Made by a program: the position numbers and the translations under genes | Source: Thauera carbonicopians | GTDB taxonomy: Bacteria; Pseudomonadota; Gammaproteobacteria; Burkholderiales; Rhodocyclaceae | Reading direction: 5' to 3' | Assembly: GCF_025699485.1 (NCBI RefSeq) | Contig: NZ_JANUXN010000003.1 | Coordinates: 434,001 to 498,000 of the forward strand | DNA length: 64,000 bases | Shown here: positions 29,250 to 52,580 of the stretch, piece by piece | Position numbering within the stretch: position 1 is the stretch's first letter | Layout of the letters: each line of letters begins with the position of its first letter | The notes under the pieces: model-generated | Databases searched by the model: none | What the model was told of the DNA's origin: nothing | Seen by the model: only the letters and a program-made list of their open reading frames with translations

Positions 29250-29576
29250 TCAGGCCTCGGGCGGCGCCTGGTGCTTCAGGGCTTCGTGGTTGTGGTCGGT
29301 CATTTTCTGCTTGTACTTCTGGACCTGGCGGTCGAGCTTGTCGGCCATCGCGTCGATGGCGGCGTACAGGTCGGTATCCTCGCTTTCGACGAAGATGTCC
29401 TTGCCACGCACGTGCAGCGTGACTTCGGCCTTCTGCTGCAGCTTCTCGACGGAGAGGATCACCGCCACGCTGGTGACGTTGTCGAAGTGGCGGATGACGC
29501 GGTCGAGCTTGGCGCCGACGTAGTCGCGAATGGCCGGCGTGACTTCGACGTGGCGCCCGGTGATGTTGAGATTCAT
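29250..29576 (-). CDS. hpf: Ribosome hibernation promoting factor (short form)
   Basis: The 108-residue protein starts MNLNITGRHVEVTPAIRDYVGAKLDR and contains VHVRGKDIFVESEDTDLYAAIDAMADKLDRQVQKYK-like helix, matching short HPF/YhbH. It binds the 30S decoding region in stationary phase and promotes 100S dimers. The position between rpoN and ptsN is the conserved proteobacterial order. Confidence 0.95.
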   Translation of the reverse strand: MNLNITGRHVEVTPAIRDYVGAKLDRVIRHFDNVTSVAVILSVEKLQQKAEVTLHVRGKDIFVESEDTDLYAAIDAMADKLDRQVQKYKQKMTDHNHEALKHQAPPEA

Positions 29577-29593: not shown

Positions 29594-31054
29594 TCAGATC
29601 GATTTGCGCAAACTGACCGGCGGGATATTGAGTGATTCGCGGTATTTCGCGATGGTGCGACGTGCGACCACGATACCCTGCTGGCCCAGAACTTCTGCAA
29701 TTCGTGCGTCGGACAGGGGCTTCTTCCTGTCCTCTGCGTCCACCAGCTGGCGGATCAGTGCGCGGATTGCCGTTGAGGAAGCTGCTCCGCCGGTGTCGGT
29801 GGAAACGTGGCTGCCGAAGAAATACTTGAGTTCGAAGACGCCACGCGGTGTCGCCATGTACTTCTGCGTCGTGACGCGCGATACGGTGGATTAGTGCAGT
29901 TCGAGCTGGTCTGCGATCTCCCGGAGGGTCAGTGGCCTCATCGCCACATCACCATGATCGAAGAACTGTCTTTGCTGGTCAACGATGGCCTGGGACACGC
30001 GCAGGATGGTGTCGAAGCGCTGCTGCACGTTCTTGATCAGCCAGCGCGCTTCCTGGAGCTGGCCGGTGAGCCCGCCGCCCTGTCCCCTGTTCTGCTGCAG
30101 CAGGCTGGCGTACAGGCGATTGACGCGCAGGCGCGGCATCGCTTCCTGGTTCAGGCTGACGGTCCAGCGGCCGCGAACCTTGCGCACGACGACGTCGGGC
30201 AGCACGTAGCGCGTCTCGGAAGCCGAGTGGCGCAGGCCGGGGTGCGGGTCCAGGCTGCAGATCAGGGCGTGCGCGGCGCGCAGTTCGTCGTCGTTGCAGC
30301 CGGTCAGCTTCTTCAGGCGGACGAAGTTGCGTTCGGCCAGCAGTTCGAGGTGCGCATCGACGATCTCGAGCGCCAGCATCTGGATCGAGCTTTCGGGCAT
30401 CGCGCGCAGCTGCAGCGCCAGACATTCCTGCGGCGTGCGGGCGCCGATGCCTGCCGGATCGAGGTTCTGCACGTGGCGCAGCGCGATCGACAGATCGTCG
30501 AGGTCGATCTCGAGCTCGGGCGGCAGCAGTTCGAGCAGCTCTTCTAGCGGCTGGTACAGGTAGCCGTCGTCGTCGAGCGCTTCGATGATGAAGCGCACCA
30601 GCGCACGGTCGAGATCGTTCAGCGGCGACAGCGCGACCTGCTGGTCGAGGTGTTCGCGCAGCGACAGCTCGGCGGCCTGGATTTCCTGGAAGTCGACGTC
30701 GTCGTCATCGTCGCGCTTGGCCGATGCGCCGGTGCCGACGTTCGACCAGTCGATGCCTTCGTCGCCGCCTTCGTGCTCGGCTGCGCTGCCGGCGTCGGCG
30801 TCGCCGCCCGCGTTGGTGTCGGCTTCGCGCTGCTGCTCACGTTCGCGCTCGGCCGGAGAGGTGCTGGTCGAGGGCTCGAGCCTGGGCGGCGGCTCGTCGA
30901 ATTCCTCGCGTTCCAGCATCGGATTCTCGAGCAGGAAGCGCTCGATCTCCTGGTTCAGCTCGATCGTCGACAACTGCAGCAGCTTGATCGACTGCTGCAG
31001 TTGCGGCGTCAGCGTGAGATGCTGGGAGAGCTTGAGCTGGAGACTGGGTTTCAT
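29594..31054 (-). pseudogene. rpoN: RNA polymerase sigma-54 factor, interrupted by an in-frame stop
   Basis: The frame runs from ATG at 31054 through region I (QLKLSQHLTLTPQLQQSIKLLQ), the acidic region II and the core-binding region to REIADQLELH, where TAA occurs (29891-29893) as codon 388. The same frame continues [20 protein letters not shown] to the RpoN box [10 protein letters not shown] and a normal stop, 486 codons in all, a typical RpoN length. In the family the interrupted position is Glu of HESTVSRVT. The stop removes the -12 recognition HTH and the -24 RpoN box, so the 387-residue product would not start transcription. A reinitiated 87-residue C-terminal piece (ATG at 29857) is possible but lacks a ribosome site. 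TAA differs from GAA by one base. Confidence 0.9.
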
Positions 31055-31060
31055 CCTGGA

Positions 31061-31783
31061 CTAGAGGCGGAAATGCTCGCCGAGGTAGACCTGGCGGACT
31101 TTTTCGTTGGCGATGATCTCGCCCGGCTGGCCGCTTGCGAGCACGCGGCCTTCGCTGATGATGTAGGCACGGTCGCAGATGCCGAGCGTCTCGCGGACAT
31201 TGTGGTCGGTGATCAGCACGCCGATGCCGCGTTCCTTGAGGAAGCGGATGATCTTCTGGATGTCGATCACCGCGATCGGATCGACGCCGGCGAAAGGCTC
31301 GTCGAGCAGGATCAGGCGCGGGTCGGTGGCCAGCGCGCGGGCGATCTCGCAGCGGCGGCGCTCGCCGCCCGACAGCGAGATGGCGGTGTTGTCGCGCAGA
31401 TGGCCGATGCCGAGCTCTTCGAGCAGTTCCTGCAGGCGCTCGTCCACCTGGCGGTTCTCCAGCCCCTGAAGCTCCAGCACGGCGCGGATGTTCTCGGCCA
31501 CCGTGAGCTTGCGGAACACGCTCATTTCCTGCGGCAGGTAGGACAGGCCCAGCCGCGCCCGGGCGTGGATCGGCAGGTGGGTCAGGTCCTTGCCGTCGAG
31601 GCCGATCTGGCCGCCGTCGGCGCGCACCAGGCCGACGATCATGTAGAAACAGGTGGTCTTGCCCGCGCCGTTGGGGCCGAGCAGGCCGACGACCTCGCCC
31701 GAGCCGACTTCGAAGCCGACGTCATGTACGACGGTGCGTGCCTTGTAGCGCTTTTGCAGGCCAGCGACCTTAAGCAGACTCAT
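31061..31783 (-). CDS. lptB: Lipopolysaccharide export ABC ATPase
   Basis: The 240-residue ATPase drives LPS transport from the inner membrane with LptFGC. It has Walker [11 protein letters not shown]-loop [10 protein letters not shown], signature [15 protein letters not shown], Walker [16 protein letters not shown] and the H-loop DH. Its downstream neighbour is rpoN with six bases between, the conserved order. Unusually, the gene upstream is recX (14-base overlap); no lptC or lptA gene precedes it in this window. Confidence 0.95.
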
Positions 31784-33299: not shown

Positions 33300-33315
33300 T
33301 GGCACAGAGCTTGCA
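33300..33315 (+). promoter_or_regulatory. Sigma-54-type -24/-12 sequence (TGGCAC-N5-TTGCA)
   Basis: On the plus strand TGGCAC (33300-33305), five bases, then TTGCA (33311-33315) matches the sigma-54 consensus exactly. It points away from recA, towards the 3' end of the leftward cinA gene, so any transcript would be antisense to cinA. It may be chance. Confidence 0.3.
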
Positions 33316-51309: not shown

Positions 51310-52125
51310 GTGGCCACTTGCCGGACCAACATCGACGCCCTCGGCCATGCGCACCCGCCGGCAGGGCCCGATGCCCGCATCGTCTCGCTGGTGCCGTCGC
51401 TGACGGAGCTGATCTTCGAACTGGGCCTGGGGGAGCGGCTGGTGGGCCGCACCGGCTTCTGCATCCATCCCCGCGAGGCCCTGCGTGCGGTGCCCAAGGT
51501 CGGCGGCACCAAGGACGTGAAGCTCGACGTGCTGAAGGCGCTCGCGCCGACGCACCTGATCGTCAATATCGACGAGAACCGCAAGGAAACGGTCGATGAG
51601 CTGGCGGCATTCGTGCCGCATGTGATCGTCACGCATCCGTGCACGCCGGCCGACAATCTTCAGCTCTACCGCCTGTTCGGCGGCGTGTTCGACCGCGACG
51701 CCGAGGCGGCAAGGCTGTGCACGGCACTGCAGGCCGCGCTGGACGATGCCGCCGCGCTGCGTGCAAGCCTGGCCGAAGAGGCGGTGCTGTACCTGATCTG
51801 GCGGCAGCCGTGGATGACGGTGGCGCGCGACACCTATATCGCGGCGATGCTCGAGACGGTCGGCTGGCGCAGCTTGCCGGAGGAGGCGCAGAAACGCTAT
51901 CCGGAGTTCGAGTGGGCGCTGGCGGAGCAGGCTGCGCGGGTCTTCCTGTCGTCCGAGCCCTACCACTTCAACGACAGCCATCTGGCGGAAGTCGAGGCGC
52001 TCGGCAAGCGCCCCGCGACGCTGATCGATGGTGAGATGGTGTCCTGGTACGGCAACCGGGCGGTCGCCGGGCTGCGCTACCTGATCGCGCTGCGCCGTCG
52101 GCTGGCCGGCCTGGCGACCGACTAG
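51310..52125 (+). CDS. BtuF-like helical-backbone metal receptor
   Basis: The 271-residue product from a GTG start resembles periplasmic substrate-binding proteins of cobalamin or ferric-siderophore transporters: RIVSLVPSLTELIFELGLGERLVGRTGFCIHP, LKALAPTHLIVNIDENRKETVDELAAFVPHVIVTHPCTPADN, and VGWRSLPEEAQKRYPEFEW. No signal peptide is visible at this start. The family symbol is withheld because no transporter genes are adjacent. It ends against the PIN gene with a four-base overlap of the converging ends. Confidence 0.8.
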   Translation: MATCRTNIDALGHAHPPAGPDARIVSLVPSLTELIFELGLGERLVGRTGFCIHPREALRAVPKVGGTKDVKLDVLKALAPTHLIVNIDENRKETVDELAAFVPHVIVTHPCTPADNLQLYRLFGGVFDRDAEAARLCTALQAALDDAAALRASLAEEAVLYLIWRQPWMTVARDTYIAAMLETVGWRSLPEEAQKRYPEFEWALAEQAARVFLSSEPYHFNDSHLAEVEALGKRPATLIDGEMVSWYGNRAVAGLRYLIALRRRLAGLATD

Positions 52126-52580
52126 CGTTCCGGTGGCGCTGCCGGGGCGAGCGTTTCGGCGATGAAGCGCTCGGGTGTCGTCACCCGGGAGCGGCCGCGC
52201 AGCAGGCTGTGCCGGCCGGCCCGGAGCAGCAGCTTGTCGCGCGTAAGCAGGTGGCTGGCGCCGGCGTCGAAGGCGATTTCGAGGAATTTCTGGTCGTCGC
52301 CGTCGCGGCAGACGGGGAGCGCGCGCGCTTCGCCTGCGGCCGTTTCCGGCAGGATCTCGACCCGGCTGCGATAGTCCGCCAGCAGCGCATGCTGCGCATC
52401 CTCGCCGAGCCTGAACTGGGAATAGGCGAGCACGTGTCGCAACTCGGTCAGCGCGTCCTCGCGCGACACGAGCGTGCAGGCGCCGCCTTCGATCCAGTCA
52501 CGCAGCGAAGCGAGGCGGGGATCACGGAACATCCACAGCGCGAGGATGGTATTGGTATCGAGGACGAGCCGGGGGGGCAT
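52122..52580 (-). CDS. PIN-domain putative toxin
   Basis: The 152-residue protein is of the COG1569 PIN family. The acidic site residues are in VLDTNTILAL, EDALTELRHVL and CRDGDDQKFLEIAFDAGASHLLTRDKLLL. These proteins are Mg-dependent ribonucleases, usually paired with an antitoxin. No antitoxin gene is seen on either side (75 bases lie upstream before the phaC terminator region), so it is orphan or its partner is elsewhere. Confidence 0.85.
   Translation of the reverse strand: MPPRLVLDTNTILALWMFRDPRLASLRDWIEGGACTLVSREDALTELRHVLAYSQFRLGEDAQHALLADYRSRVEILPETAAGEARALPVCRDGDDQKFLEIAFDAGASHLLTRDKLLLRAGRHSLLRGRSRVTTPERFIAETLAPAAPPER

Follow-up and report, generated by a model that had tools for sequence, protein, structure and literature searches.

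Has the strain of Thauera carbonicopians represented by assembly GCF_025699485.1 lost sigma-54, the product of rpoN? The question arises from a 64,000-nucleotide stretch of contig NZ_JANUXN010000003.1 (positions 434,001 to 498,000 of the forward strand; hereafter the window, whose numbering is used throughout), since an initial annotation of this stretch had noted that rpoN is cut by an in-frame TAA at the conserved Glu of its helix-turn-helix (HTH) region. Our analysis suggests, with a probability of roughly 0.7, that the sequenced clone is a recent, spontaneous sigma-54 null with a nonsense mutation in the only rpoN found. Evidence for a recent null consists of a single rpoN match, a single stop within it, a tail whose encoded protein is unchanged, and the retention of activators and promoter-like sites. 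A genuine base, an inactive product and an origin of the change during isolation or culture are inferred.

Translation of the rpoN frame (31054 to 29594, minus strand) yielded exactly one internal stop followed by a normal end, and since homology covers the whole frame from end to end, chance is not an issue for that stop. The frame and its parts are as follows.

29594 to 31054, minus strand: rpoN (sigma-54) frame, 487 codons counting the internal and final stops (translation).
29891 to 29893, minus strand: in-frame TAA, codon 388, at position 378 of E. coli-type sigma-54 (translation and alignments).
29894 to 31054, minus strand: upstream piece of 387 residues, with the activator-interacting domain, the core-binding domain and the first part of the DNA-binding domain (Pfam).
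29594 to 29890, minus strand: remainder past the stop, with the rest of the HTH and the RpoN box (Pfam).

The TAA was assigned to position 378 (E. coli numbering) because the residue just after it pairs with residue 379 in PDB chains of E. coli-type sigma-54 (e.g., 7qv9). The nearest named rpoN was that of Thauera butanivorans (96.4% nucleotide identity over 1461 bases, gap-free; 97% amino acid identity across the first 387 residues), followed by that of T. linaloolentis (92% amino acid and 90.6% nucleotide identity). Among 110 aligned rows, which include the window genome's own and hold some genomes twice, the column for codon 388 contained Glu in 108, TAA in the window genome and a gap in one; together with the translation, this bears out the annotated position of the lesion. 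The gapped row (L107:6001-7560) comes from a metagenome-derived betaproteobacterium (isolate Emb289P4bin32) whose rpoN is frameshifted a few codons ahead of the same HTH motif, which could be a loss of separate origin or a fault of the assembly. Glu-378 of the Klebsiella protein has reportedly been the subject of mutational work; none of the papers listed by a literature search for that residue contained it.

Both Sigma54_AID (PF00309; residues 4-48, 64 bits) and Sigma54_CBD (PF04963; residues 122-315, 197.2 bits) lie before the stop, whereas Sigma54_DBD (PF04552) is split by it, with profile positions 6-62 of 160 before the TAA and 64-159 after. A functional sigma-54 requires the HTH and the RpoN box within one polypeptide, and here the TAA at codon 388 separates them. 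The RpoN box is described as contacting the -24 element and the HTH as contacting the -12 element (PMC7057263). Judged by its domains, the product of 387 residues retains the parts for activator interaction and core binding, whereas the recognition helix and RpoN box are gone, in agreement with the earlier claim that the elements recognising -12 and -24 are missing from it. Translation would stop within the HTH; binding of the product to core RNA polymerase may persist, yet it would not read the -12 and -24 elements; since it could not read them, we propose that sigma-54-dependent transcription would be off, and with it flagella, urea and nitrogen scavenging, and PEP-CTERM floc proteins. The nonsense change could have come about by chance or by selection during isolation or culture, where loss of flagella and flocs might be favoured in shaken medium.

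A profile search found one PF04552 match in the entire assembly, which speaks against a second rpoN and gives no support to the suggestion, made when the stop was first noted, that the strain might rely on another copy. Comparison of the site in close relatives, proposed at the same time, showed the stop to be private to this genome: each of the 29 genomes of the Thauera genus set (window genome included) held one PF04552 match, and the match was stop-free in the other 28. Of 395 genomes drawn from across the family, 381 held a PF04552 match, and among the matches listed only the window genome carried a stop. A plasmid search returned 11 records, none reaching 80% query coverage; among the matches listed, the first three fell on lptB-type genes and two had no listed gene. 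Elsewhere in the collection, two contigs of metagenome bin Th196P4bin58 (L100 and L101) each carried an rpoN, perhaps as two copies or as two strains in one bin.

The apparatus that sigma-54 serves appeared to be still in place. Fifteen activator genes matched PF00158 at >200 bits, all of them stop-free; this count, like that for T. butanivorans, omits weak matches (five here, 21-32 bits; six in T. butanivorans, 24.7-32.4 bits). For 13 of the 15, a counterpart of at least 83% identity was present among the 15 strong activators of T. butanivorans, and two had none. A strict -24/-12 pattern was found at 12 sites in the window genome, compared with 2 for the reversed control, and at 13 sites in T. 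butanivorans, compared with 1. For 7 of the 12 sites, flanking DNA aligned across the site with a T. butanivorans locus, only pattern-holding loci having been compared. Frames downstream of the sites were chosen mechanically, and nine of the 12 were scanned with Pfam, giving FliD, a FliK hook-length domain, FliE, a periplasmic binding protein (urea-type, as its start would indicate), a PEP-CTERM protein, an AraC-type regulator and a UbiE methyltransferase; two of the nine had no Pfam match. The PEP-CTERM response regulator PrsR was also present (744.4 bits against a cut-off of 502.6). Within the window, a consensus -24/-12 site at 33300-33315 (plus strand) lies between recA and the next gene, pointing away from recA and running antisense to the neighbouring gene; an identical 16-base sequence is present at the corresponding position in T. 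butanivorans, and the site may be due to chance.

The codons on either side of the stop bear on the age of the loss. Between the window genome and T. butanivorans, 50 rpoN codons differ, 38 synonymously and 12 not (the stop counted in): codons 1-300 hold 25 synonymous and 11 non-synonymous differences, codons 301-387 hold 6 and 0, and the 98 codons of the tail (389-486) hold 7 and 0. In comparison with T. butanivorans, the tail contained no amino-acid change, frameshift or other stop that would indicate further decay past the lesion. Changes on the window lineage alone are informative about when the tail fell into disuse, and differences were therefore polarised with T. linaloolentis as outgroup. 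In the tail, the window lineage acquired 3 synonymous and 0 non-synonymous changes, compared with 4 and 0 for the T. butanivorans lineage; in codons 1-300, the window lineage held 9 and 3, with 12 codons not polarisable. Three synonymous changes out of three would be expected with P ~0.02 if selection were absent. Compared with an old loss, a recent loss, a sequence error or a tail that is still expressed is thus moderately favoured by this conservation.

Since the initial annotation had raised the possibility of a functional protein in two pieces, started again at a downstream ATG, we also considered routes by which sigma-54 might still be made. The ATG at 29857 does exist, though it is codon 400 and not 399 as then numbered:

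29594 to 29857, minus strand: possible reinitiation open reading frame of 87 residues, its ATG without a recognisable Shine-Dalgarno sequence.

Its anti-Shine-Dalgarno pairing energy was -0.5 kcal/mol, compared with -6.9 for hpf, and 89% of the 742 minus-strand ATGs in the window match or beat it, leaving reinitiation and the two-piece idea without support from this measure. The test is not a strong one, because the starts of rpoN (-1.9), ptsN (-1.5) and lptB (-2.1) are also weak. A survey of transfer RNA (tRNA) genes found 49 places; ARAGORN, run on the 46 loci that contain them, called 48. No TTA anticodon, as expected of an ochre suppressor, was among these calls, and a 100-N gap lies within one tRNA cluster. 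At this gap (G000:C46, near 84,400-84,500), a repeated tRNA-Ala(GGC)/tRNA-Glu(TTC) unit (L176:83-520; G000:C46 near 84,230-84,670) is interrupted, probably because a tandem repeat collapsed during assembly. The place that ARAGORN did not call, which is cut by the gap, has the anticodon GGC by eye, and the tRNA-Glu copy cut by its other side has TTC.

The reality of the base itself was assessed from the rest of the window. Frames were picked by codon-position substitution bias, and 51 were kept, of which two lacked a T. butanivorans counterpart and 49 were compared; some of the small ones may not be genes. Three of the 49 held a stop, namely rpoN and two others. In the second a plausible start is located downstream of the stop, and the third ends 22 residues before its T. 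butanivorans counterpart (52123-52188). We take this last frame to resemble a BtuF-type binding protein, and its early end looks like ordinary C-terminal variation. Apart from rpoN, none of the 49 had a broken conserved core. Since the other two stops spare conserved cores, the assembly does not appear to be generally error-ridden in the window, making an error less likely; yet intact frames cannot decide a single base. The contig is number 33 of 48 and is long (502,565 bases), in a genome of 4,524,829 bases whose completeness is listed as 100% and whose contamination is given as 0.33.

How, then, should the competing explanations be weighed? The main rival, which we consider a distinctly less probable but serious one, is that the TAA is an artefact of base calling, of assembly or of a mixed culture, in an organism with an intact rpoN. 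Such an artefact would explain why the remaining rpoN sequence is conserved like that of a working gene, why the other 28 genomes of the genus are stop-free and why the parts of the sigma-54 regulon are present. However, with the conserved cores of the other compared frames intact and the contig long, a random error that creates a stop at precisely this conserved codon is improbable, albeit possible. An older, fixed loss, by which the lineage would have lacked sigma-54 during much of the time since it separated, appears very improbable, because the tail is conserved, with no amino-acid change and all three window-lineage changes synonymous. The stop itself is what this explanation accounts for, and with just three informative changes drift since an older loss keeps some probability; against it stand the absence of any frameshift or other stop past the TAA, the intact activators, and the lack of amino-acid change in codons 299-387 relative to T. 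butanivorans.

A sigma-54 that still functions, through read-through, tRNA suppression or two pieces produced by reinitiation at codon 400, is likewise highly unlikely. It would be consistent with the unchanged tail and with the persistence of activators and promoter-like sites, and the gap in the tRNA-Ala/tRNA-Glu cluster could conceal a further tRNA copy. However, TAA followed by T is an efficient stop, which counts against read-through; neither the ARAGORN calls nor the two gap-cut copies supply a TTA anticodon; anti-Shine-Dalgarno pairing is nearly absent at the 29857 ATG; the cut sits within the HTH; and the stop is not common to the other genomes of the genus. A natural split sigma factor, divided within the recognition helix and working as two polypeptides or with leaky read-through, is more improbable still. 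Returning to the recent spontaneous null, several points weigh against it. The proposal that rpoN loss would be favoured in culture draws on analogy, and an rpoN knock-out of Pseudomonas aeruginosa is reported to have grown 56% more slowly (PMC8160344). A lone changed codon in an otherwise intact gene also fits an isolated consensus error, and the three window-lineage changes in the tail are too few to date the loss closely.

Truncation of rpoN is already known in other bacteria, and the Thauera gene is one more case, notable in that it is the only copy found and that its regulon is in place. In Neisseria, rpoN is likewise a betaproteobacterial gene that has lost the HTH and/or the RpoN box, as described for N. 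gonorrhoeae RLS and for the atypical rpoN of N. meningitidis (PMC6755734). The survey reports 290 N. meningitidis isolates, of which 17 were frameshifted, 4 stop-truncated and 269 without the HTH but with the RpoN box; the lesions comprise frameshifts, stop codons or a deletion, and the gonococcal product is called likely inactive (PMC6755734). However, the loss in Neisseria is widespread and that report describes no GAFTGA activators as identified (PMC6755734), whereas the Thauera stop is a single one in one genome, in which 15 strong activators are open. A further case is P. aeruginosa 10_S, a natural isolate from cystic fibrosis in which 1082delT introduces a premature stop towards the C-terminal end of rpoN and RpoN-dependent genes are reported as enriched among those repressed (PMC8160344). 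It differs in being clinical and in carrying a frameshift rather than a nonsense change, and later indels restored its frame in the laboratory (PMC8160344). In serially cultured Campylobacter jejuni, rpoN was lost along with motility, and the authors concluded that selection favoured the loss; this organism is distant, its deletions spanned 21 to 8448 bases, and its changes were followed experimentally (PMC7677240).

For flocs, an rpoN1-disrupted mutant of Aquincola tertiaricarbonis RN12 is described as planktonic, with flocs restored by overexpression of an RpoN1-dependent PEP-CTERM gene (PMC9850573). Thauera offers a parallel in its PrsR-type regulator and its PEP-CTERM gene behind a -24/-12 site, although RN12 is a laboratory mutant with four rpoN paralogues (PMC9850573). 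Floc formation in Azoarcus halotolerans is also reported as RpoN1-regulated, and Thauera is among the floc-formers listed (PMC9012009). From the genome, we would predict loss of flagella, of nitrogen-stress control and of flocs in the strain; since -24/-12 sites precede such genes and RpoN1 has these precedents in floc formation, the loss of flocs and flagella is a concrete, testable forecast rather than a result. If the stop is real, the clone behind the one genome that the searched collection contains for this species may lack every sigma-54 function, and any phenotypes reported for the strain (non-motile, planktonic, growing poorly on limiting nitrogen) could then be strain artefacts. It would also provide, in an activated-sludge genus, a natural and freshly mutated sigma-54 null with its regulon in place, in which the link between RpoN and flocs could be tested.

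The genes adjoining rpoN, as compared with T. butanivorans, are as follows.

31061 to 31783, minus strand: lptB, upstream neighbour, without internal stop.
29250 to 29576, minus strand: hpf, downstream neighbour, without internal stop.

In the same comparison ptsN and hprK were also free of internal stops, so that all four neighbours are intact, as originally annotated.
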